Shown here piece by piece: positions 3,010 to 17,344 of a stretch of DNA of 64,000 nucleotides. How positions within the stretch are numbered: the stretch's first letter is position 1; each line of letters opens with the position of its first letter. Origin of the DNA: Olivibacter sp. SDN3 (lineage in GTDB: Bacteria; Bacteroidota; Bacteroidia; Sphingobacteriales; Sphingobacteriaceae); the NCBI RefSeq assembly GCF_014334135.1, contig NZ_CP060497.1:5208001-5272000 (forward strand), given 5' to 3'. Made by a program: the position numbers and the translations under genes. A model generated the notes under the pieces. That model searched no databases and was not told where the DNA came from. It worked only from the letters and a program-made list of their open reading frames with translations.

Positions 3010-6000
3010 ATGAATTTACCTAATATTCTTACGCTATTAAAAAATAGCATTATATGTTATCGGCATGAACGAATGGTGATAAAAATGGTAATGTTAATAC
3101 TACTCACCTTTATCATACAGGCAAATGCTAAAAGTAGTGCTCAAACCATCACCATCCATAAGCCACTGATAACTGCTGAGCAATTTTTTCTTGAAATACA
3201 GAAACAAAGCCCTTACCACGTACTTTGTGATGCAACCGTATTGAAACAAATACCTGCACGTAAAGTTGATTTTGAAGACACACCTATTCTTGAGGCATTA
3301 AACGCTTATTTGGGAGATACACCGTATGGCCATCAACTGAATAGTAATAATACCATTATCATTAAAGAAAAACCATCACCTATAAAGCTTAACAATAAGC
3401 AACCTATTCAACAAGCCATAACAGGTAGGGTGTTAGACGATGCAGGAGAACCTCTGGTAGGGGTAACTGTTCGGGTAGATAACGGTCAAACAGTCACCAC
3501 TAATCAGCAGGGAGATTTCAGTATTACGATCAGCAATAACAGTAAGACCTTAACGTTTAGCTATCTTGGATACAAAGCACAACAAGTTTCAATCAATGGA
3601 AGAAGTGTAATCAATATAACACTTGACTTTGAGTCGTCTGATTTGGAAGAAGTGATTGTCGTAGGTTATGGCACCCAACTCCGCAAGGACGTTGTAGGTG
3701 CCGTTGATCAAGTTAGTTCAAGAGCGCTGGAAGGCCGGCCTGTAACCAACGTGACGCAAGCGTTACAGGGCGCCTCTCCAAGTTTAGTCATCCAGCAGCC
3801 AAATTCTGAGCCAGGTGGCGGGCTAAATCTCAATATTCGAGGAATCAGTACGTTAGGCAATAACAGTCCGCTCGTTGTGATAGACGGCATCGTTGGCGGT
3901 GATATTAATCTTTTGAATCCCGCTGATATTGCATCGGTGTCGGTATTAAAAGATGCAGGAAGCGCTGCCATTTACGGGTCTAGGGCAAACAACGGCGTTG
4001 TACTAATCACAACTAAACAAGGTAATAAGGACGGAAGAAACGTCCTAACTTACAACGGGCTGGCAGGGATCAATACTCCAAAAATGTTTTTCAACCCCGT
4101 TAGAGGTTATGAAAACGCTATTCTTCGTAACCAGTCGGCACTAAATGCCGGACTGCAGCCTGTATTCAGCCCTGAACAAATCAGAACATTTCAAAATGAT
4201 GGAGACGAAGAATGGTTCGTGAATAGCATCATTCAAAATGCTTGGCAACAGAATCATAACCTCAGTCTATCCGGAGGAAGTAGTAATTCTACGTATCACG
4301 TTTCCGCCGGCTTATTTGACCAGCGTAGTAATTTTGTAGGACCAGATTATGGGGCCAGACGCTACAATTTCCGCATCAATCTCAGTAACGACTATGGTCG
4401 TCTGAATTTATCTACACAGCTGGCTTACGCCCGTAATGACAATAAAGATCATTCGGGGTCTACACAAACACTGATGGTTGATGCCGCTAGAGTACCTGTT
4501 ATCTATCCCATTAAAGATGAACAAGGCCGCTATTTAACTAATGACGTATTATCAGAATTTAATCCTTTGGGTATACTTGAGCAAGGAGGATTCAGACAAT
4601 ATACAGACGACAACCTGTTTGGGAATATCCAAGCCACATTTCAGGTAAATGACTTTCTGAAATTAAGAGGTGTTTTTGGCGGTAGCCTAAAAGCAAACAA
4701 TCAATACGCCCGCACGATGCAAGTAGACTACTACCCATCAGGGGTCTCGGGCCCTGATCGCAATACGAACGATATTGCCTACAAAAGCTTGGAACTAAAC
4801 ACACAATTTATAGCAGAGTTTAGCAAACAGTTCCAACAACATAGTGTAAATGCTTTAGTTGGCGTATCAAATGAAAATTTCGGCAGCAGGCAATCCGCTA
4901 TATTCCGTCGTTATACAGATAATGAACTAGGGACACCCATTTCCGAAACCGTAATTAGTACCGATTCGGAAAATTCCAATCAGACCGCGACGGAAAATAG
5001 TTTGAACTCACTTTTTGGACGGGCCTCTTACTCTTATCTAGACCGCTATTACGCAGAATTCAATTTCCGTTACGACGGCTCTTCGAAATTCAGCAAAACC
5101 AACCGATGGGGATTTTTCCCATCGCTGTCAGCAGGTTATCGTTTAAGTAATGAATCATTTATGGAAGCCTATAGGGAACAATTTGGAGACATCAAATTAA
5201 GAGCATCTTATGGTATAGTAGGTAATCAGAACGTAGGTAATTTTCAATACCAAACCACCTATTTTACCTTTGAGAATGCTTACGGGTTCAACAATATAGG
5301 CGTTAGTGGCACAGGTTATAACTTTGCCAATCCCGATCTGCGCTGGGAAAGAGCTGCGACCTTTAACTTTGGTGCTGATTTAAGTTTCCTAAACAACAAG
5401 TTAACCGTATCGGCCGACTATTTCAGTAAAGTGACCCGTGATATTTTAGTCCCTCCACAAGTGCCTTTGGTTTTTGGCACAGGACTCCCAGATTTTAATG
5501 CCGGTAGAGTACGTAATCAGGGCTGGGAGCTTACTGTTTCCTATAACCACCAAGGTGAAAAGTTTGGTCATTTTATTACGGCAAACGTGGGTGACTCAAA
5601 AAATAAGGTGCTTTATTTTGAAGGAAATGAACGCCTAACAGGCGTTGAAGAACTCCAAATCTTGTTAAAAGAAGGCTTCCCTTTTAATTCCTATGTAGGT
5701 TTAAAAAGAGACGGTTACTTTCAGAATATTGACGAAATTGCCAATGCCGCGACCCCTCCCGGTCTCAATGTACAACCTGGCGATAATCGCTATGTAGATG
5801 TAAATGGCGACGGCGTTATCGACAATAATGACCTATTCGTATTTGGCAACCCATTTCCGCGCCTAAATTATGGTTTACAGTACAATGTCACTTTTAAGGG
5901 TTTTGACCTTAATGTGCTCCTACAGGGTGTAGGCAAGCGAACGATGATGGTACGGGGCGAATTGGTAGAACCTTTTCATTTCAACTACGGATTGACAATG

Positions 6001-6375
6001 TATGAACATCAACTGGATTATTGGACTCCCGTCAATCCAGACGCTCGTTACCCACAGCTTTCAGCGAACAACAGCAACTCAAACATTAATAATTTTCGCA
6101 GAGGATCTGATATGTACTTGTATAATGCTGCTTATCTCCGATTAAAAAACCTCCAGGTGGGCTATACGTTGCCCCAGGATGTGTCGAGAAAATTGGGTAT
6201 GCAAAAACTAAGAGCTTACCTGTCCGGACAAAATCTTTTCACGCTGTCTGGAATGAAGTTTCTCGATCCGGAAATCACCGAATTTAACAGCAGCATGGAC
6301 AATAGCGGCGCAAACAGTGGTCGTGCCTATCCTACCCTAATCTATTATGGTTTCGGTCTTGACATCACCTTTTAA
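3010..6375 (+). CDS. susC: SusC/RagA-type TonB-dependent receptor (locus 1)
   Basis: 1121 residues. A membrane signal at about 22-42 ends near ANAKSSAQ. It is followed by an STN (secretin/TonB N-terminal) domain at about 46-119, the signalling domain that contacts FecR; a carboxypeptidase-like regulatory domain at about 135-208; the SusC hallmark EEVIVVGYGTQ at 213-223; a plug domain to about 330; and a large beta-barrel ending in aromatic IYYGFGLDITF. SusC proteins form the outer-membrane channel beneath the SusD lid and take up oligosaccharides using TonB energy. Since the same operon holds a GH76 mannanase, alpha-1,6-linked manno-oligosaccharides are the likely cargo (inference). susD follows after 42 bp. 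Length and motifs are normal for the family. Confidence 0.97.
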   Translation: MNLPNILTLLKNSIICYRHERMVIKMVMLILLTFIIQANAKSSAQTITIHKPLITAEQFFLEIQKQSPYHVLCDATVLKQIPARKVDFEDTPILEALNAYLGDTPYGHQLNSNNTIIIKEKPSPIKLNNKQPIQQAITGRVLDDAGEPLVGVTVRVDNGQTVTTNQQGDFSITISNNSKTLTFSYLGYKAQQVSINGRSVINITLDFESSDLEEVIVVGYGTQLRKDVVGAVDQVSSRALEGRPVTNVTQALQGASPSLVIQQPNSEPGGGLNLNIRGISTLGNNSPLVVIDGIVGGDINLLNPADIASVSVLKDAGSAAIYGSRANNGVVLITTKQGNKDGRNVLTYNGLAGINTPKMFFNPVRGYENAILRNQSALNAGLQPVFSPEQIRTFQNDGDEEWFVNSIIQNAWQQNHNLSLSGGSSNSTYHVSAGLFDQRSNFVGPDYGARRYNFRINLSNDYGRLNLSTQLAYARNDNKDHSGSTQTLMVDAARVPVIYPIKDEQGRYLTNDVLSEFNPLGILEQGGFRQYTDDNLFGNIQATFQVNDFLKLRGVFGGSLKANNQYARTMQVDYYPSGVSGPDRNTNDIAYKSLELNTQFIAEFSKQFQQHSVNALVGVSNENFGSRQSAIFRRYTDNELGTPISETVISTDSENSNQTATENSLNSLFGRASYSYLDRYYAEFNFRYDGSSKFSKTNRWGFFPSLSAGYRLSNESFMEAYREQFGDIKLRASYGIVGNQNVGNFQYQTTYFTFENAYGFNNIGVSGTGYNFANPDLRWERAATFNFGADLSFLNNKLTVSADYFSKVTRDILVPPQVPLVFGTGLPDFNAGRVRNQGWELTVSYNHQGEKFGHFITANVGDSKNKVLYFEGNERLTGVEELQILLKEGFPFNSYVGLKRDGYFQNIDEIANAATPPGLNVQPGDNRYVDVNGDGVIDNNDLFVFGNPFPRLNYGLQYNVTFKGFDLNVLLQGVGKRTMMVRGELVEPFHFNYGLTMYEHQLDYWTPVNPDARYPQLSANNSNSNINNFRRGSDMYLYNAAYLRLKNLQVGYTLPQDVSRKLGMQKLRAYLSGQNLFTLSGMKFLDPEITEFNSSMDNSGANSGRAYPTLIYYGFGLDITF

Positions 6376-6417
6376 TGTTTATTTACCCATCATGAACGTA
6401 CACCAAAAAGAAGAACA

Positions 6418-8058
6418 ATGAAAGTGACAAAAACATATAAAACCGGAATAACGGCTCTTCTATTGCTTGCGGCTTTATCCGGATGCAAAAAGCTCGATTT
6501 GCTACCCGAAAATAGTTTTACAGAGCTTAACTACTGGACCTCAGAAGCCAAAGTCAATAGCATCCTAAATACTGCATATTCTCAGATGAGCAACAGCGAT
6601 TACTTTTTCTCAAATGAAGGGTTGTCTGACAATGCTTTTAGTGGTAGAGGTGATTTTAACGGTTCCACGTCTATTGCCGCAGGCACCTATGATCCTGCTT
6701 TAGGTCGGATAAAATCAGAATGGCAATTCCACTATGAAGGGATTAAAACCTGCAACCTGATAATTGAAAATATTGATCAGGTTCCTATGGATGAAGGCAT
6801 AAAAAATAGAATGCGGGCAGAAGCACGATTCATTCGTGCGCTGAAACATTTCCAATTGATGACTTGGTTCGGAGATATCCCTTTACTGAGAACGGACCCT
6901 ACACGAGAGGAAGCCTTGGAGGTAAGCAGAAGCCCTAAAGCGGAGGCATTAGATTTTATATTAGGGGAGTTGGAGGAGATAGTCCCGATGTTACCAACGA
7001 ATACGTCGTATGCGGACGCGGATAAAGGTCGGATTACCAGAGGGGCGGTCATTGCCCTTAAAGCAAGAGTTTATCTCTATGAAAACCGCTGGCAAGATGT
7101 GGCAACCACCTGTGAGCGGCTTATTCAGACCGATGAAAATGGAAGTTATCAACTTTTTCCGAACTACGAAGGGTTATTTTTGCCACAAAATCAAAATAAT
7201 AGTGAGGTCATTTTAGACATTCAATATGTGCCGGAATTTCGCGTTTGGACAAATATGTTTGATCTGGCACCCATATCGGTAGGCGCACGTTTAAACAATC
7301 TGGCACCAACCCAAGAATTGGTAGATAGCTATCGGATGCTCAATGGCAAGGCCATCAATGAAAATGAATCCGGGTATAATGAAGATGACCCCTATACTAA
7401 CCGGGATCCGAGAATGGCGTTCACCATCGTCCACCATCTTCACGAATGGAGAAGGCCTGATGGTTCTACCCAGACTATTTATACCAAACCAGGCAGCACC
7501 CCGACAGGAGCCAATTCATCCGATGAATACGCACCAGGTACCGTCAGCTCACCCACGGGTTATTACCTACGTAAATATTATGACCCTACACACGGCCCCA
7601 ATTTCAGGGCCGGATTGAATCTCATATTAATACGTTATGCTGATATCCTATTGATGTACGCAGAAGCAAGAAATGAGCTTGCTCAACTTAACCAGGACGA
7701 ATGGGATCAAAGTATCAGAGCGCTTCGTACGAGATCAGGTTTCACCGCCGAGGAAGCGCTCGCCTACCAACCGAATTGGACCCAAGAAGATATCCGTCAG
7801 ATCATCCGTAACGAGCGACGAGTTGAACTGGCTATGGAAGGCCTTCGGATTTTCGATATCCGTCGTTGGCAAACAGCCGAAGAAGTTTTAAACGGATGGG
7901 TACATGGTGCAAAGTTTGGCCCAACAAATGAAGACAATGGTTACATCAGAGCCAATTTCCGAACATTCGATCCCAATAGACATTATCTGTGGCCAATTCC
8001 ACGTGATGAGCGCAATTTGAACAATAATTTGACGCAAAACCCAGGATGGGAAAATTAA
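6418..8058 (+). CDS. susD: SusD/RagB-type glycan-binding lipoprotein (locus 1)
   Basis: 546 residues, with a lipoprotein signal ending LSGC (Cys23). The mature start LDLLPENSF resembles the LDxxP start typical of SusD proteins. N-terminal SusD-like and C-terminal RagB/SusD domains are recognisable, with the helical pattern MRAEARFIRALKHF and the late conserved segments YADILLMYAEARNELA and NERRVELAMEGLRIFDIRR. The protein sits on the cell surface and forms the substrate-capturing lid over the SusC channel. It lies 42 bp after susC and 28 bp before the susE-like gene, in one operon. Carbohydrate specificity cannot be read from sequence; the neighbouring GH76 suggests mannan. Confidence 0.97.
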   Translation: MKVTKTYKTGITALLLLAALSGCKKLDLLPENSFTELNYWTSEAKVNSILNTAYSQMSNSDYFFSNEGLSDNAFSGRGDFNGSTSIAAGTYDPALGRIKSEWQFHYEGIKTCNLIIENIDQVPMDEGIKNRMRAEARFIRALKHFQLMTWFGDIPLLRTDPTREEALEVSRSPKAEALDFILGELEEIVPMLPTNTSYADADKGRITRGAVIALKARVYLYENRWQDVATTCERLIQTDENGSYQLFPNYEGLFLPQNQNNSEVILDIQYVPEFRVWTNMFDLAPISVGARLNNLAPTQELVDSYRMLNGKAINENESGYNEDDPYTNRDPRMAFTIVHHLHEWRRPDGSTQTIYTKPGSTPTGANSSDEYAPGTVSSPTGYYLRKYYDPTHGPNFRAGLNLILIRYADILLMYAEARNELAQLNQDEWDQSIRALRTRSGFTAEEALAYQPNWTQEDIRQIIRNERRVELAMEGLRIFDIRRWQTAEEVLNGWVHGAKFGPTNEDNGYIRANFRTFDPNRHYLWPIPRDERNLNNNLTQNPGWEN

Positions 8059-8086
8059 CAATGTAAAATTTCAACCAATATAAGAT

Positions 8087-9217
8087 ATGAACCTATTTAT
8101 AAAACATCCGGCATACCTTTTAGCGATCTTAGCATTGCTTTTGACAGCCTGCAGTAAGGAAAAAAGCTTAAATACTGAAGTAAGTGAAGTAACAACACTC
8201 TTTGCTCCAAAAAATGATGCCTTTATTAAGCTTGGGCAAGGGAGTATTCAATTTGAGTGGGAAATGGCCCGTGCTGCAGATAATGGTTTGGTAATATACG
8301 AAGTGCTTTTTGATAGAGAAGATGGGGATTTCTCTGAGCCCTTATATAGTTCTCCTTCCGAAGGGAATGGTATGCAGCGAATACTCACGCTCGATCATGG
8401 TGTTATCAATCGTATTGCTGAAACCGCCGGCATTGGCCCCCTTGAAACAGGCGCTATTAAATGGAGCGTAGTATCCTCCAAAGGCGTCAATGTGCAGGCA
8501 CCCGTAGCCGTTCACACATTGGTTATAGAGCGTCCAGCGGGATTTACCTCGGTTCCCACTGAACTTTACCTCACCGGATCTGCCGCAGAAGGAGGAGGAA
8601 ATCTGGATAACGCTCCCGAATTCAAACAAATATCCAACGGCATATACGAAATATACACAAAATTAGGAGATGGAACTTACCAATTTATCGATGCCCAAAA
8701 TGAAAATGCCAACAGTTATTTTATTGACAATACAGGCATTATTCAGGCGGGGGGAGAAAACAGCCATGCAGGAGAGCACGTTTACCGTATCCGATTAAAC
8801 TTTAACAACGCAACCTCCTCTATGACAGAAATCACGAATGTCAGTTTATGGTTTGCTCCAGACGATAGATTTTGGTTCGACTTACCATATACACAAAATG
8901 GAACTTGGGAAATTAAAGGTGCAGACATTATATTTAAGCAAGAAGATTGGGGGCGAGACGAACGATATAAATTTAGATTCATGGTAAAAAATGCGACTGG
9001 AGAAGATTCCGAAGAATGGTATGGTAGTAGTAATGCTGATAATAGCAGACCTACAAGTAGTACGCCTGCGTCTTACTGGCACATGGTATTGGTAGACAAT
9101 GACAGGTGGCAAAATTGCTTTAAGTTTGACGGTGACGTCGATAATAGCAAAGCAGATATTAAGATAGACTTCAATTCAAGCGTAGAAGAGTACACACACC
9201 AGGTTACCAGTCAATAA
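8087..9217 (+). CDS. SusE/SusF-family surface glycan-binding lipoprotein
   Basis: 376 residues with a lipoprotein signal ending LLTAC (Cys22). The N-terminal third (about 35-145) has the SusE-type Ig-like pattern, for example FAPKNDAFIKLG, IQFEWEMA and AIKWSVV. The rest contains LYLTGSAAEGG, NGIYEIYTKLGDGTYQFID and a second, similar beta-sandwich with YKFRFMV and WYGSS, as in SusE/SusF starch-binding-module-like domains. These lipoproteins help hold polysaccharide at the cell surface. The gene lies between susD (28 bp) and the GH76 gene (28 bp), an arrangement common in Bacteroidota mannan loci. The family call rests on pattern and position; the ligand is inferred as mannan. Confidence 0.85.
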   Translation: MNLFIKHPAYLLAILALLLTACSKEKSLNTEVSEVTTLFAPKNDAFIKLGQGSIQFEWEMARAADNGLVIYEVLFDREDGDFSEPLYSSPSEGNGMQRILTLDHGVINRIAETAGIGPLETGAIKWSVVSSKGVNVQAPVAVHTLVIERPAGFTSVPTELYLTGSAAEGGGNLDNAPEFKQISNGIYEIYTKLGDGTYQFIDAQNENANSYFIDNTGIIQAGGENSHAGEHVYRIRLNFNNATSSMTEITNVSLWFAPDDRFWFDLPYTQNGTWEIKGADIIFKQEDWGRDERYKFRFMVKNATGEDSEEWYGSSNADNSRPTSSTPASYWHMVLVDNDRWQNCFKFDGDVDNSKADIKIDFNSSVEEYTHQVTSQ

Positions 9218-9245
9218 ATTAATCGTTTTACTTAATCATTCAATT

Positions 9246-10403
9246 ATGACACATACTAGGAAACCAGTCAACCTACTAATCAACTATTTGGTGTTTATAT
9301 TAGTGCTATTTTACAGCTGTAAAGAGGAAGCTATTATATTGTATCCGCCAGATGACACGGTTAATCCGGAGGTTGTATACCCTTGGGAAGAAATAGCTGA
9401 TTCATTGCAGCAAACAACCAATGAGATTTACCGCTCAACTGATGGAAGGTACTACAAGCAGAATGAAGAAAATAATACCTTTCATTATTGGTGGAATGCC
9501 CATATGTTAGACGTTTTAGTTGATGGATATCAGCGTACGGAAAATGAAAATTACATCCAACGCATGCGAGCTTTATTAGATGGAATGAAAGAGACGAACG
9601 ATAACACATACCCTAATCATTTTTATGATGATATGGAATGGTTGGCTCTATCGTCTTTGAGAGCTTATCAAGTAAGTAATGACGAAGCTTTTCTACAAGC
9701 CACTAGTATTTTGTGGGATGACATCCAAACAGGATTAAACGACTATCAAGGTGGTGGGATAGCCTGGAAAAAGGATCAGCTGGACTATAAAAACACACCC
9801 GCCAATGCACCTGCCATCATTCTTGCCTGTAGGCTCTATACGGATTTAAACAACGAGCAGGATTTAACCTTAGCACAAACATTATATGAATGGCTTAAGA
9901 GTACGTTGGTAGATCCGGCCAACGGTATTGTGTGGGATGGCATCAACCGTAACGGTGATGGAGAAATTGACAAAAATTGGCTGTTTACCTATAATCAAGG
10001 TGTATTTATTGGTGCTGCCCACGAATTATATAAGGTCACGGGTGATCGCACCTATCTCAATGATGCCGTACGCACAGCAAACACTGCTATCAGTCATCCT
10101 GATATTACAGTTGGCGGTATTCTTAAAAATGAAAATCAAGGGGACGGAGGCCTTTTTAAGGGAATTATGATCCGCTACCTTGCTTTATTGGCAGAGGAGC
10201 AAACACTTACTGATGCCGACAGAATAAGATTTCAGGATTTTATCAAATTTAATGCTGAAACAGCTTATACAAAAGCACTGTCAAGGCCCGCATTGCTCTT
10301 CGGCCCAAATTGGGAAGCACAACCAGACGAAACGGTCGATCTATCAACACAATTAAGTGGTGTGATGCTTATTGAGGCGGCAGCTCGACTTTCAGCACAA
10401 TAA
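9246..10403 (+). CDS. GH76 endo-alpha-1,6-mannanase lipoprotein
   Basis: 385 residues with a lipoprotein signal (Cys25 in VLFYSCKEE), so probably surface anchored. The GH76 fold is marked by HFYDDMEWLAL, whose adjacent Asp128-Asp129 match the catalytic Asp pair of the family, by GGGIAWKKDQLDYKNTPANAPA, by FTYNQGVFIGAAHELY and by GDGGLFKGIMIRYLALL. GH76 enzymes cut internal alpha-1,6-mannosidic bonds of the yeast cell-wall mannan backbone. As the last gene of the susC-susD-susE operon, it would generate oligomannosides for import through SusCD. A strong terminator follows 15 bp after its stop. The length is normal and both catalytic residues are present. Confidence 0.93.
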   Translation: MTHTRKPVNLLINYLVFILVLFYSCKEEAIILYPPDDTVNPEVVYPWEEIADSLQQTTNEIYRSTDGRYYKQNEENNTFHYWWNAHMLDVLVDGYQRTENENYIQRMRALLDGMKETNDNTYPNHFYDDMEWLALSSLRAYQVSNDEAFLQATSILWDDIQTGLNDYQGGGIAWKKDQLDYKNTPANAPAIILACRLYTDLNNEQDLTLAQTLYEWLKSTLVDPANGIVWDGINRNGDGEIDKNWLFTYNQGVFIGAAHELYKVTGDRTYLNDAVRTANTAISHPDITVGGILKNENQGDGGLFKGIMIRYLALLAEEQTLTDADRIRFQDFIKFNAETAYTKALSRPALLFGPNWEAQPDETVDLSTQLSGVMLIEAAARLSAQ

Positions 10404-11146: not shown

Positions 11147-11216
11147 AAAAAAGAAAGGTTCTCAACCGGGGAGGTCGAGAACCTTTACTAACCAATTATA
11201 AACCTAAATTATGAAT
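11147..11216 (-). ncRNA. Candidate small RNA, copy 1
   Basis: On the minus strand, a transcript starting near 11215 would carry a conserved core, the reverse complement of 11187-11213, then a hairpin: AAAGGTTCTC (plus 11177-11186) pairs with GAGAACCTTT (11154-11163). Four more pairs, GACC with GGTT, close a TCCCC loop. Six T (11147-11152) follow, as in an intrinsic terminator. A -7/-33 promoter lies just upstream. Copy 2 at 12363 has the same core and loop but a different stem that is still paired, which supports a structured RNA. Alternative: this is only the 3' end and terminator of the DinB-like gene transcript, whose stop is at 11277. No coding frame of note is present. Confidence 0.55.
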
Positions 11217-11220
11217 GATA

Positions 11221-11252
11221 CAAATATAGTGTACCCCATACACATCCACAAA
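11221..11252 (-). promoter_or_regulatory. Promoter with spacer dyad for small RNA copy 1
   Basis: Minus-strand -7 box TATATTTG (plus 11221-11228) and -33 box TTTG (plus 11249-11252) are 20 bp apart, a close fit to the Bacteroidota consensus. The spacer holds the perfect dyad GTGTA-CCCCA-TACAC (11229-11243), a plausible repressor site. Confidence 0.55.
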
Positions 11253-11276
11253 AAATTAACATAATTTAACAAGCTA

Positions 11277-11801
11277 TTATCGTTCCCAAAAAGGGGGAGG
11301 TTCAATACCTAAAGACCGAAGATACACGTAACCTTGTCCACGATGATGGATTTCGTTATCAATAAAATAAAGGCAATGCCCATACACAATTCCGTCAAAT
11401 TGTCCAAAGGCAATATCTTTTTGCTGAAAACGGCCGGGTTGTAGTTCTTGCCAAATACGGTTTATATAAGCAGTACTCCAGTCCCATAATTTTAAAACAT
11501 CTTCTTTAGTTGTTGGAGACCCCGATAGTCCGGACGCTTGTATCTCGTTTTTTAACTCCTTCCATTCTCCTGTAACTACCCCATGGGCACCCGGAGCTCC
11601 CATCTGTAAGAGTTCTTGTGCCAGCTTACCGAAAGGGCGCATGCCTCCAACGCTATAAGCAAACAGTTCTTTCTCAGGAAATGTATCAATGACCTTACGA
11701 GTCAATGAACGGTGTCCTTGCCAATGTTCCAGTAACTGCGCCGGGGTCAGCACTGCATCCGCTGCCTGCTCTAGATTTTCTTCGAATGTTTTGTTTTCCA
11801 T
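11277..11801 (-). CDS. DinB-like four-helix metal-binding protein
   Basis: 174 residues from the ATG at 11801, preferred over an in-frame ATG 12 codons upstream because family members begin close to MENKTFEENL and an A-rich AATAATAAA leader precedes it. The C-terminal segment NEIHHRGQGYVYLRSLGIEPPPFWER is typical of DinB-family proteins, and HWQGHRSLTRKVIDTFPE is the matching N-terminal helix; the His residues would bind a metal. DinB-fold proteins include thiol transferases (BshC/YfiT-like relatives) and many without a known role. It stands alone on the minus strand. The function is unknown beyond the fold. Confidence 0.8.
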   Translation of the reverse strand: MENKTFEENLEQAADAVLTPAQLLEHWQGHRSLTRKVIDTFPEKELFAYSVGGMRPFGKLAQELLQMGAPGAHGVVTGEWKELKNEIQASGLSGSPTTKEDVLKLWDWSTAYINRIWQELQPGRFQQKDIAFGQFDGIVYGHCLYFIDNEIHHRGQGYVYLRSLGIEPPPFWER

Positions 11802-11889
11802 TTTATTATTCTTTTGGTTTATGAAACAAAAGAACACCTACTACTGACAGCGTTATGTCAGTGGTAAATAAAAGAATTTACGTATTGTC

Positions 11890-12117
11890 TTATTTTTTAT
11901 CAACTGCATGCGCCAACCCTTCTATAACAGCGTCGGCAACATCTATATTAATCGTTTCATTATCCGCAACTAGCCACTCACCCTGCTCTTTCACCATCAA
12001 AAAAGGATCAATGCCCGGGTACTGTATACGCCAAGCGGTTGAATCTTTATAATCCTCAGGATATGCGTGAATATCAATAAAAGTTTTTGTGCCTGGTTCT
12101 CTCACTGTAATTACCAT
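11890..12117 (-). CDS. Small uncharacterised protein
   Basis: 75 residues with no signal peptide or membrane segment. A good ribosome binding site, AGGAGGAAAAATC, lies directly before the ATG, which supports a real gene. The sequence mixes beta-strand-like stretches (VITVREPGTKTFIDIHAYP, WRIQYPGIDPFLMVKE) with an acidic C-terminal helix (INIDVADAVIEGLAHAV). I do not recognise a family. It lies 88 bp upstream of the DinB-like gene on the same strand and might be cotranscribed with it. Confidence 0.6.
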   Translation of the reverse strand: MVITVREPGTKTFIDIHAYPEDYKDSTAWRIQYPGIDPFLMVKEQGEWLVADNETINIDVADAVIEGLAHAVDKK

Positions 12118-12362
12118 GATTTTTCCTCCTACAATCTATTTTCTACGTTATAGATACAACAAGTATTTATACAAATTGATTAAAAATTCTGTTTTTATTA
12201 GTTTCTACTTATTTTTATAATACCTATTTAAGATGATTGAATTACTAAAACACACGTTGAACAGTATTGTTCCAATATATGAGGAAGAATAGAACGTTGT
12301 AAAAGATACTTTTCAGATAACAAATAGTCTGTCAAGCAACATCTGCTTCAATTGGTGCTTAC
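12118..12362. other. AT-rich intergenic stretch
   Basis: About 245 bp between the small minus-strand gene and the second RNA-like unit. I see no open frame of note, no hairpin with a T-run and no repeat. The 5' leader and promoter of the 12117 gene should lie at its left end. Confidence 0.5.
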
Positions 12363-12430
12363 AAAAAAGCCTTCGACCGGGGAGATCAAAGGCTTTCGCT
12401 AACTAACCAATTATAAACCTAAATTATGAT
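12363..12430 (-). ncRNA. Candidate small RNA, copy 2
   Basis: This is the second minus-strand unit. The core (reverse complement of 12402-12427) is identical to copy 1 from CATAATTTAGG through GGTTAGT. The hairpin AAAGCCTT (plus 12389-12396) with AAGGCTTT (12366-12373) is extended by TGATC with GGTCG around the same TCCCC loop and ends in six T (12363-12368). The outer stem differs from copy 1 at several positions on both arms yet still pairs. It lies 49 bp beyond the fdhA stop, so it may also end fdhA transcription, but its own promoter suggests independent synthesis of an RNA of about 68 nt. Confidence 0.55.
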
Positions 12431-12434
12431 GACA

Positions 12435-12466
12435 CAAAGATAGTGTATATAACACACTATTGCAAT
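12435..12466 (-). promoter_or_regulatory. Promoter with spacer dyad for small RNA copy 2
   Basis: Minus-strand -7 box TATCTTTG (plus 12435-12442) and -33-like ATTG (plus 12463-12466) are again 20 bp apart. The spacer carries the inverted repeat ATAGTGT (12440-12446) / ACACTAT (12454-12460), in the same place as the GTGTA/TACAC dyad of copy 1. Confidence 0.5.
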
Positions 12467-12478
12467 ATTTTTTCCTTT

Positions 12479-13669
12479 TTAATTGGCAATCATACTATGT
12501 GGATCTATCACAAACTTTTTAGCTGCACCCTTATCGAAATCCTGATATCCTTTTGCGGCGTCATTAAGTGAAATTACCTGCACATTTACTGCTTTGGCGA
12601 TTTCAATCCTGTCGTACAGAATAGTATTCATCAGCGATCGATGGTATTTCATCACCGGACACTGCCCTGTGTGCAAAGAATGTGACTTTGCCCACCCCAG
12701 ACCAATCCGGATACGCAGACTTCCTTTTTTCGCCGCGTCATCCGAGGCTCCCGGATCACCGGTTACATATAAACCCGGAATACCTAACTGCCCACCTGCA
12801 CGAGTGACTTCCATAATGGAATTAAGCACCGTTGCCGGCCGCTCTACTTTACTATCCTGACCATGTCCCCTCGCTTCAAAACCTACGCAATCTATTGCAC
12901 AGTCTACTTCGGGCAACCCGATAATTGCTTCAATCTGGTCAGCTAAGCTTCCATCCCCCTTAAGATCGATAACTTCGCAACCAAAACTTTTAGCTTGTTT
13001 TAAGCGTTCATCAATCATGTCTCCAACAATCACTACAGCTGCTCCTAATAAATGACAAGACGCAGCGCAAGCTAAGCCTACTAGCCCGGCACCAGCAACG
13101 TAAACAATACTACCGGGGGCTACACCAGCGGTAACCGCTCCATGAAAACCGGTAGGAAAAATATCCGATAACAAGGTCAAATCCTTAATCTTTGACATCG
13201 CCTGATCCTTATCTGGAAATTTCAACAAATTAAAATCAGCATAAGGTACCATCACATACTCGGCTTGACCTCCTACCCATCCACCCATATCTACATAACC
13301 ATAGGCGGCTCCGGGCCTTTCGGGGTTGACGTTTAGACAGATTCCCGTTTGACCAGCTTTGCAATTCCGGCACCTGCCGCAAGCTATATTGAAAGGAACA
13401 GACACCAAATCGCCTAACTTTATAAATTCGACATCTCGACCTGCTTCTATTACCACGCCTGTAATTTCATGTCCCAATATCAAGCCCGATTCCGCTGTCG
13501 TTCGCCCCCTTACCATATGCTGATCACTTCCACATATATTCGTGGACACAATTTTTAAGATAACTCCATGATCGCATTTTCTGTTACCTAAAGCGAGTTT
13601 AGGATAGTCGATCTCACGTACTTCTACCACTCCCGGCTTCACATACGACACACCATGATTCTTACACAT
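12479..13669 (-). CDS. fdhA: Glutathione-independent formaldehyde dehydrogenase
   Basis: 396 residues, a zinc-dependent medium-chain dehydrogenase. The sequence follows Pseudomonas putida formaldehyde dehydrogenase closely by memory: VSTNICGSDQHMVRGRTTA, VSVPFNIACGRCRNCKAG, AYGYVDMGGWVGGQAEYV, IDCVGFEARGHG, IGLGWAKSHSLHTGQCPVMK and KKFVIDPH near the end. Catalytic zinc ligands are Cys46, His67 and Glu68; structural zinc Cys97, Cys100, Cys103 and Cys111; a Rossmann motif VAGAGLVGLA binds NAD, which in this enzyme stays tightly bound. It oxidises formaldehyde or other aldehydes without glutathione, and can dismutate them. It lies 19 bp after the GlcG-like gene in one unit. The divergent AraC regulator may control it. 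Confidence 0.92.
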   Translation of the reverse strand: MCKNHGVSYVKPGVVEVREIDYPKLALGNRKCDHGVILKIVSTNICGSDQHMVRGRTTAESGLILGHEITGVVIEAGRDVEFIKLGDLVSVPFNIACGRCRNCKAGQTGICLNVNPERPGAAYGYVDMGGWVGGQAEYVMVPYADFNLLKFPDKDQAMSKIKDLTLLSDIFPTGFHGAVTAGVAPGSIVYVAGAGLVGLACAASCHLLGAAVVIVGDMIDERLKQAKSFGCEVIDLKGDGSLADQIEAIIGLPEVDCAIDCVGFEARGHGQDSKVERPATVLNSIMEVTRAGGQLGIPGLYVTGDPGASDDAAKKGSLRIRIGLGWAKSHSLHTGQCPVMKYHRSLMNTILYDRIEIAKAVNVQVISLNDAAKGYQDFDKGAAKKFVIDPHSMIAN

Positions 13670-15397: not shown

Positions 15398-15429
15398 ATT
15401 GTATATATAAGTCAAAATCTTTAAGTTTG
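15398..15429 (+). promoter_or_regulatory. Promoter of the locus 2 sigma gene
   Basis: ATTG (15398-15401), then 20 bp, then TAAGTTTG (15422-15429), an exact match to the TAnnTTTG -7 box. Transcription should begin near 15436, inside the left arm of the palindrome that follows. Confidence 0.6.
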
Positions 15430-15467
15430 TTTAAGAAAGAAATTATGTTATAATTTCTTTCTTAAAC
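15429..15467 (+). promoter_or_regulatory. 18-bp perfect inverted repeat overlapping the promoter
   Basis: The left arm at 15429-15446 (GTTTAAGAAAGAAATTAT) is perfectly complementary to the right arm at 15450-15467, with a loop of only 3 nt. It begins at the last base of the -7 box and ends 11 bp before the sigma ATG. As DNA it could be an operator at the start site; as RNA a hairpin of about 12 bp would remain at the 5' end of the message, next to the start codon. No T-run follows, so it is not an intrinsic terminator. It is followed by CAATTACCTAA and the start codon. Confidence 0.6.
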
Positions 15468-15478
15468 CAATTACCTAA

Positions 15479-16069
15479 ATGATGACAGCCAGGGGAGCTA
15501 TAGCAGCTTATTTAATTGAGGAACTTCAATCAGGAAGCGAGATCGCTTTTAGGAAGATATACGACCAATTGCATCCAAAAATTTACCGCTTTATCTTTTC
15601 GCTATTAAAAGACAACAATCAAAGTGAGGAGATATTACAGGAAACATTTATCAATTTATGGCTCAACAAACATAAAATTGATACTCAGCTTCCCCTCTAC
15701 CCTTACCTATATTTAACGGCACGACGATTGACCATAGATGCTTTTCGCAAAGCGAGCAACGAACACCGCTTAAAAGAACGGCTACAGTTTTTACAGGGCG
15801 TAAGCGCCAATGATACAGAGGACAAGATCATGGCCGCCGATTTACAAAGAATTACCGACGAACTTATCGACAGCCTACCCCGGCAACAAAAGATCGTTTT
15901 CCAGCTCAGCCGGATAGATGGTTTATCGTACGATGAAATTGCTGAGAAACTACACTTGTCGCGCAATACCGTACGCAATCATCTCGTCTGTGCGCTGAAA
16001 ACTTTGAAAACACATTTTGTTAAGCACGACATCACCTACTTTTTTGTTATTTTTTTCTTACTGCACTAG
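15479..16069 (+). CDS. FecI-type ECF sigma factor of locus 2
   Basis: 196 residues. Region 2 (about 22-90) contains FRKIYDQLHPKIYRFIFSLLKD, QSEEILQETFINLWLNK and YLYLTARRLTIDAFRK. Region 4 (about 125-185) contains LPRQQKIVFQLSRIDGLSYDE and the recognition helix LHLSRNTVRNHLVCALK. It should activate the susCD operon downstream when released by the FecR protein encoded 69 bp later. Two in-frame ATGs stand together at the start. The C-terminus ITYFFVIFFLLH is a hydrophobic tail that could touch the membrane or the FecR helix. Confidence 0.95.
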   Translation: MMTARGAIAAYLIEELQSGSEIAFRKIYDQLHPKIYRFIFSLLKDNNQSEEILQETFINLWLNKHKIDTQLPLYPYLYLTARRLTIDAFRKASNEHRLKERLQFLQGVSANDTEDKIMAADLQRITDELIDSLPRQQKIVFQLSRIDGLSYDEIAEKLHLSRNTVRNHLVCALKTLKTHFVKHDITYFFVIFFLLH

Positions 16070-16138: not shown

Positions 16139-17344
16139 ATGAAAGACCGTTCAGACCAATTATATACATTGTTGTGTGCTTACATGACAGAAAAGATCAC
16201 CGAAGCCGAATTCGAGCAACTTATTCAACTTATGCAAGAAAACCAGGGCGATATCGATGAAAGCACTTTGGCTTCGGCAATCGATAGGGCCTGGAAATGC
16301 TATGACCAAGATCAGCCCATTAGGATAAACGCCGATAAGGTTTATAGTAAGATTTTGGCTGACGATCGTATTAAGCCAAGTGTTTCCAAACAACGGAAAA
16401 AAAACAAGTACATATTCTGGATGCCAACGATAGGTGCCGCGGCATTAATTTGTATTGGTATATTTTTATTTATACAGCATAGCTCAAGGCAACCGCTGGA
16501 TTCTGACATATCAAGCTTATCCAAAAATATCGACAGCAATTCGATACAACCGGGTAATAACAAAGCTACTCTCATTTTAGCAGATGGCAAAGCAGTAGCG
16601 CTTGAATCTATGGAAGAAGGAATGCTATCTTTTCAAGCAGGTGAAAATATCAAAAAAGAGGGTAATCAACTGATATATATGAACACCGACCAGCAAAATG
16701 GAAATGAGCAAGAAAGGTTAAACACCATCCATACTCCTGCCGGTGGCGAATTTGCCCTCACCTTACCCGACGGCACAAAAGTTTGGCTAAATGCACAATC
16801 TTCCCTTACCTATCCTACGAGCTTTAGCTCGCATCAAAAAAATCGTGCGGTAAAATTAGTTGGCGAAGCCTATTTTGACGTGGCGAAAAATAAGGACCGA
16901 CCCTTCATCGTGGAAGCCAACGGTACTGCGATCAAAGTATTGGGCACGCAGTTTAACGTCAATGCCTATTTGGATGAAAAAACCATTAAAACTACCCTGA
17001 TAGAAGGATCTGTTCTGGTGAAATCAAAAAAATTAAAACCTGGTCAGCAAGCCATCAGTTTTTCTGAAACAGAAAACCTATTGGTGCATGATATCGATGT
17101 ACAAGAAGCTACAGCATGGCGCAATGGCTATTTCTTTTTTGATGATGAAGATATTAAAACCGTCATGAATACGATTGCCAGGTGGTATGATATAACAGTT
17201 GAATACCAAGGCGATCTGAACGGTAAAACCTTTGGGGGCACCATTTCGCGATATGAAGATTTTCACAAATTATTACAAGTCATAGAACTGACAGAATCTG
17301 TACATTTCCAAACTAAAGGAAGGAGGGTTATGGTATCACCTTAA
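16139..17344 (+). CDS. FecR-type anti-sigma factor of locus 2
   Basis: 401 residues. The cytoplasmic anti-sigma part (1-90) is followed by one membrane helix at about 91-112 (FWMPTIGAAALICIGIFLF), a periplasmic FecR domain (about 195-290, with TPAGGEFALTLPDGTKVWLN and LVGEAYFDVAKNK) and a C-terminal DUF4974 domain (about 325-400, with INTIARWYDITVEYQG-like sequence). It holds the sigma factor until the N-terminal signalling domain of the adjacent SusC reports substrate. It lies in the standard sigma-fecR-susC-susD order, 69 bp after sigma and 249 bp before susC. Confidence 0.95.
   Translation: MKDRSDQLYTLLCAYMTEKITEAEFEQLIQLMQENQGDIDESTLASAIDRAWKCYDQDQPIRINADKVYSKILADDRIKPSVSKQRKKNKYIFWMPTIGAAALICIGIFLFIQHSSRQPLDSDISSLSKNIDSNSIQPGNNKATLILADGKAVALESMEEGMLSFQAGENIKKEGNQLIYMNTDQQNGNEQERLNTIHTPAGGEFALTLPDGTKVWLNAQSSLTYPTSFSSHQKNRAVKLVGEAYFDVAKNKDRPFIVEANGTAIKVLGTQFNVNAYLDEKTIKTTLIEGSVLVKSKKLKPGQQAISFSETENLLVHDIDVQEATAWRNGYFFFDDEDIKTVMNTIARWYDITVEYQGDLNGKTFGGTISRYEDFHKLLQVIELTESVHFQTKGRRVMVSP

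Follow-up and report, generated by a model that had tools for sequence, protein, structure and literature searches.

What are the two short, similar units that lie on the minus strand close behind a DinB-family gene and an fdhA-like gene in Olivibacter sp. SDN3: small RNA genes, terminators of the genes next to them, or remnants of a mobile element? The stretch of DNA analyzed here (the window) is 64,000 nt long and comes from a genome of 6.12 Mb in one contig. An earlier reading of the window, here called the original prediction, had described the units as paralogous RNA-gene-like sequences that are under selection and expressed from their own promoters. The analysis presented below leads us to regard both units as members of a family of trans-acting sRNAs, dispersed over the genome in many copies, that repress susC-type genes at their translation starts. 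We consider this reading likely, with a probability of roughly 0.7; expression and repression are inferred, without experimental data. The gene structure, the copy number, the conservation, the covariation of the hairpin and a seed complementarity limited to susC-type starts are shown by computation.

Structure of the two units

Both units have the same order of elements from 5' to 3': a −33 element with TTG, a 20-bp spacer, a TAnnTTTG box, about 5 nt, an invariant core, a hairpin and a T run (Table 1). The core reads CTAACCAATTATAAACCTAAATTATGA on the plus strand in both units, and the expected number of such shared 27-nt cores by chance is 0 (100 shuffles). The TAnnTTTG box occupies positions −12 to −5 in Bacteroidota (PMC9723704), and the transcription starts are therefore predicted at 11216 and 12430, which would put the core at the extreme 5' end of transcripts that have not been observed. 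The predicted RNAs of both units fold in the hairpin only and leave the core, i.e., the first ~28 nt, unpaired. A simple terminator scan of the region detected unit 1 alone, and did no better than on shuffles of the region.

The original prediction held in most respects. There are two paralogous units on the minus strand, their outer and inner stems differ and still pair in both, and they share the same loop and an exact 20-bp spacing between the −33 and −7 boxes, which was counted by hand. The shared core is 27 nt long rather than about 26, and the starts that had been given (about 11215 and 12429) are 1 nt off those predicted here.

Table 1. Features of the two units, their neighbors and their predicted targets in the window.
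Feature	Coordinates	Strand	Details
sRNA gene, copy 1	11147..11216	minus	predicted transcript ~70 nt; covariance model match 91.8 bits, E 1.2e-17
sRNA gene, copy 2	12363..12430	minus	predicted transcript ~68 nt; covariance model match 82 bits, E 1.5e-15
Core (seed), copy 1	11188..11214	minus	invariant 27 nt, UCAUAAUUUAGGUUUAUAAUUGGUUAG
Core (seed), copy 2	12403..12429	minus	identical to copy 1
Terminator hairpin, copy 1	11154..11186	minus	14 bp, UCCCC loop; -21.8 kcal/mol, z -4.2
Terminator hairpin, copy 2	12365..12397	minus	14 bp, UCCCC loop; -18.7 kcal/mol, z -2.8
T run, copy 1	11147-11152	minus	
T run, copy 2	12363-12368	minus	
-7 box, copy 1	11221..11228	minus	TATATTTG (consensus TAnnTTTG)
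-7 box, copy 2	12435..12442	minus	TATCTTTG (consensus TAnnTTTG)
-33 element, copy 1	11249..11255	minus	TTTTTTG; 20 bp from -7 box
-33 element, copy 2	12463..12469	minus	AATATTG; 20 bp from -7 box
Promoter dyad, copy 1	11228..11244		AGTGT-N7-ACACT-like, 9/10 match; putative operator
Promoter dyad, copy 2	12442..12458		AGTGT-N7-ACACT, 10/10 match; putative operator
DinB-family gene	11277-11837	minus	same strand, upstream of unit 1
fdhA-like gene	12479-13669	minus	same strand, upstream of unit 2
Best predicted target site	15464..15484	plus	AAACCAATTACCTAAATGATG; leader and start codon of ECF sigma gene (15479-16069); -18.7 kcal/mol
SusE-type lipoprotein gene	8087..9217	plus	predicted target, -16.4 kcal/mol
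FecR-type anti-sigma gene	16139..17344	plus	predicted target, -15.6 kcal/mol
SusC-type TonB-dependent transporter gene	3010..6375	plus	predicted target at start, -14.8 kcal/mol

A dispersed family in Sphingobacteriaceae

Two copies alone are no proof of an RNA; it is the 15 copies in this genome, together with several hundred in its relatives, that point to an RNA gene. The genome contains 12 exact copies of a 24-nt motif and three near copies, while a reversed-pattern control gave 0. All 15 are intergenic, each has a hairpin on the same side, and none overlaps an ORF of 90 codons or more. The core is present in 183 of the 251 Sphingobacteriaceae genomes sampled, with up to 31 copies per genome (control, 0), and the named records that carry it belong to Sphingobacterium, Parapedobacter, Mucilaginibacter and Olivibacter. 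None was found in ~385 genomes of other Bacteroidota families, within a phylum sample of 395 genomes. One large genus, g14, is almost devoid of family members, and a relaxed search there for a diverged core returned nothing at up to three mismatches. At locus L004, two tandem copies with near-identical promoters lie 247 bp apart (L004:1498-1564 and 1745-1815), a recent local duplication.

Rfam has no match in the window at the gathering score, a search of plasmids for the core gave no real match, and the only match in a phage collection was a Tenacibaculum phage leader without a hairpin. No publication on such RNAs in Sphingobacteriaceae was found in the open-access literature searched. We think it probable that the units belong to a previously unlisted sRNA family of about 70 nt, multicopy and specific to Sphingobacteriaceae, a conclusion inferred from sequence alone and without transcript data.

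The original prediction had proposed a covariance-model search of this genome and other Sphingobacteriaceae, with further copies carrying compensatory changes as the expected outcome. Such copies exist. A covariance model built from 28 members recovers both units and further members, including some with other loops and longer 5' parts. Among the 28 distinct members, 10 of the 14 stem pairs show double changes, standard pairs occupy 97.7% of the cells of the stem, and the covariation score is 0.466 versus 0.229 when shuffled (0/500) and no more than 0.157 when the register is slid. This supports a selected RNA that has its own promoter, although the transcripts remain unobserved. The use of paired substitution as an argument against plain terminators has to be qualified, since any family of intrinsic terminators would show covariation in its hairpins. 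The main weight therefore falls on the core, which is invariant and keeps its register with the promoter: in ~60 of the 172 members collected, the TAnnTTTG box has the same position relative to it.

Complementarity of the seed to susC starts

What the original prediction overlooked is the nature of the core as an antisense seed for the start regions of susC-type genes. Read as its complement, the core looks like the leader of an mRNA with a start codon, AUGA being the final four letters. At the starts of the 56 SusC/RagA genes collected in this genome, the median energy of the duplex with the core is −12.45 kcal/mol, versus −8.55 kcal/mol at the starts of 354 other genes that have a gap upstream (MWU, p 8e-14). 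The corresponding AUC is 0.81, compared to a mean of 0.55 and a maximum of 0.685 for 200 dinucleotide-shuffled seeds. Only near the start codon is there a signal (about −50 to +20, in windows that cover about −30 to +3), and farther up- or downstream, the energies fall to about −8 to −9.7. Two heptamers that are exact complements of seed segments, AACCAAT and TAACCTA, are 14-fold and 75-fold commoner, respectively, in SusC leaders than in other genes. The starts of SusD genes, the second genes of the operons, showed no enrichment as targets. In two further Sphingobacteriaceae genomes, the seed fits SusC starts with z scores of −3.5 and −4.3.

These energies ignore the accessibility of the target and take the furthest upstream ATG as the start, and the ranking of targets covered the 56 SusC genes, a 0.68-Mb sample and the window, not the whole genome. 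No better than −12 kcal/mol is reached by 46% of the SusC genes, and a perfect match to the seed occurs in no target examined. The SusC leaders of G085, a genome of g14, fit the seed (z −4.3) even though that genus is nearly without the family, and the leader consensus is therefore independent of this sRNA. A diverged sRNA could conceivably stand in for the family in that genus.

Within the window, the four genes with the best predicted pairing out of 53 are all PUL-type, encoding an ECF sigma factor, SusE, FecR and SusC (Table 1). Independently, the covariance model gave a match over the leader of the ECF sigma gene, on the minus strand (15429-15487, 30 bits, E 2.4e-4). This leader has a perfect hairpin followed by AAACCAATTACCTAAATGATGA, a mirror image of the layout of the sRNA genes, and one possibility is that the sRNA genes arose when such a leader was copied in inverted orientation. 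A PUL comprising SusC, SusD, SusE and a GH76-family gene (3010-10403) is located a short way upstream of copy 1; an ECF sigma gene lies between the two. The GH76 family includes alpha-mannanases.

Relation to FopS and other sRNAs

The FopS RNAs of Bacteroides thetaiotaomicron are 14 paralogous sRNAs of 65–70 nt for which experiments have shown pairing with susC starts and a block of translation (PMC11697453). The present family resembles FopS in being multicopy (15 copies here) and about 65–70 nt long (68–70 nt predicted here), in its TAnnTTTG-type promoter, in having a 5' seed that starts near UUUUCAUA and a short hairpin terminator, and in the start region of susC-type first genes of PUL operons as its predicted target. 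Its units are also found on viral contigs, and FopS units retrieved from viral contigs and five genomes have the same layout as those of Sphingobacteriaceae.

However, the FopS seed R1', TTTTCATAGTATTAGATTTAAGGTTAAC, is not the core of the Sphingobacteriaceae units. At up to three mismatches, R1' is found 0 times in this genome and in the other sampled Sphingobacteriaceae and occurs only in families f31 and f32, from which the Sphingobacteriaceae core is absent. The two seeds can be aligned (10 of 5000 shuffles do as well), and the resemblance might reflect either homology or convergence on similar leaders. In the two further Sphingobacteriaceae genomes, the FopS seed fits with z scores of −1.9 and −1.9, weaker than their own seed (−3.5 and −4.3), whereas a genome that carries FopS shows the opposite order (−5.1 for the FopS seed and −2.1 for that of Sphingobacteriaceae). 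FopS is also associated with RbpB, an RRM_1 protein of a type that is missing from this genus. Further points of difference are the promoter dyad and the tRNA-like leaders seen in parts of the Sphingobacteriaceae family. The family probably works like FopS without being a member of it, although this is argued by analogy and repression is inferred.

Other known RNAs share single features. GibS of B. thetaiotaomicron carries the R1 seed that it has in common with FopS and likewise pairs with translation starts (PMC11697453), but it is single copy and has another promoter and other targets. The DonS-type cis-antisense RNAs of Bacteroides PULs also exert antisense control of susC-type genes, but lie opposite their susC, whereas the Sphingobacteriaceae copies are intergenic and away from susC starts. 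3'ETS-leuZ of E. coli is an sRNA made from a tRNA 3' trailer, comparable to some viral copies found behind a tRNA gene and to many Mucilaginibacter copies behind a tRNA-like element; the copies in the window, however, have their own promoter and no tRNA.

Proposed mechanism and significance

According to the model that we favor, RNA polymerase with the housekeeping sigma factor would start at the TAnnTTTG promoter, and the hairpin and T run would end the RNA after ~68–70 nt, both steps being inferred from the sequence. Among the first genes of polysaccharide-utilization operons, in those of SusC type and some others, the seed would pair with the final ~22 nt of the leader and with the start codon (UCAU with AUGA), a complementarity that is shown statistically. 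By analogy with FopS, pairing is presumed to block ribosome entry and silence the operon. The many copies with one seed may raise the dose, and the AGTGT-N7-ACACT dyad over the promoters may place them under a shared regulator.

Hfq (PF17209) was detected in 0 of 13 genomes examined, with positive controls, which sets the family apart from Hfq-dependent sRNAs. Neither G000 nor four genomes of its genus gave a match to PF00076 (RRM protein), although some other genera of the family do have such proteins. RbpB, the partner of FopS, therefore cannot serve here and, with Hfq also missing, the chaperone is unknown.

SusC systems decide the diet of these bacteria, and their tuning by sRNAs is known from one Bacteroides family, FopS. 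If the present reading is correct, a different seed with the same role in another family, in up to 31 copies per genome and fitted to the susC leaders of that family, would turn this into a general and testable way for Bacteroidota to control their nutrition. PULs of Sphingobacterium, Mucilaginibacter and their relatives could then be silenced with a ready tool, and the question arises of which RNA chaperone serves where Hfq and RbpB are both missing. A bolder reading is that anti-start-codon sRNAs for susC operons are general in Bacteroidota, with a seed in each family-level clade that is co-adapted to its own leaders, expressed without Hfq and here without RbpB, carried in some copies by phages and released in some lineages from tRNA or tRNA-like precursors. 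Taken jointly, we hold these propositions to be slightly more probably wrong than right.

Alternative explanations

The units might be ordinary intrinsic terminators of the same-strand genes upstream of them, with the spacer kept by descent. Both do start ~50–60 nt past the stop codon of such a gene, 9 of the 15 genomic copies are located behind a gene on their own strand (10 of 15 if unit 2 is counted, the gene before which exceeds the locus used), and the hairpins make good terminators. However, about one-third of the copies are not behind a same-strand gene, the upstream genes differ, and a terminator has no need of an invariant 27-nt core in register with TAnnTTTG (~60 members). Alternatively, the core could be a mobile or integration element, such as a phage attachment site or a small insertion, rather than an RNA seed, which would suit its presence on 28 viral contigs, several times right behind tRNA genes. 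Against this, the chromosomal copies have promoter, core and hairpin in common but not their flanks, the hairpin covaries, the core is complementary to susC starts, and the viral copies have their own hairpin and T run. Both explanations were rejected as very improbable on the evidence of core register, upstream genes, flanks, covariation and susC complementarity.

It is harder to dismiss the possibility that the RNAs are real but that the main role of the core is to bind a protein or to serve as a sponge, the susC complementarity being secondary, for instance because the genes originated from a leader duplicated in inverted orientation. Read in reverse complement, the gene does look like a leader (hairpin, AACCAATT..CCTAAATTATGA), the ECF sigma leader in the window has its hairpin and AAACCAATTACCTAAATGATGA in the same order and scores with the model, and an invariant seed of 27 nt is longer than pairing alone requires. 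We nevertheless think this unlikely, given the specificity of the signal for position and against shuffled seeds, the swap between clades with FopS and the demonstrated role of FopS. Repression of susC-type starts by a trans-acting sRNA remains the preferred reading.

The promoter dyad

A perfect AGTGT-N7-ACACT dyad abuts the −7 box in 23 of the 60 members with an adjacent promoter. At up to two mismatches, this genome has the dyad at eight sRNA promoters and in only two other places. One of these (L446:1500-1530), whose dyad belongs to a longer palindrome, is upstream of what we take to be an ExbB/TolQ-like gene and the other (L442:1500-1525) upstream of what we take to be an NDH-2-like gene, both from reading the sequences without a family search. 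A shared transcription factor acting at the dyad is a possibility that we infer from sequence alone.

tRNA-like and viral copies

In Mucilaginibacter and related genomes, a conserved tRNA-like element is found directly 5' of the core (L019, L022, L023, L028, L045, L064 and ~25 further loci in alignment A2). It has an acceptor stem (TGTAGGA/TCCTACA) with double changes, a D-arm, an anticodon-like loop CCTCCTTGTCNC, a long variable arm and a T-arm. Neither ARAGORN nor Rfam at the gathering score calls a tRNA in these elements, yet the acceptor pairs covary; they were not accepted as true tRNAs and are left as tRNA-like. They could be a processing module that releases the sRNA, although this is only a possibility. 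At four other loci (L027, L144, L158 and L105), mini tRNA-like elements with acceptor, D- and T-arms but no anticodon arm occupy the same position.

The 28 viral contigs that carry the core, with its own hairpin and T run, come from IMG/VR (L258-L285). In several cases, the viral copy lies ~14–16 nt behind a phage tRNA gene; viral examples are L266:3061-3167 and L278:5202-5310.
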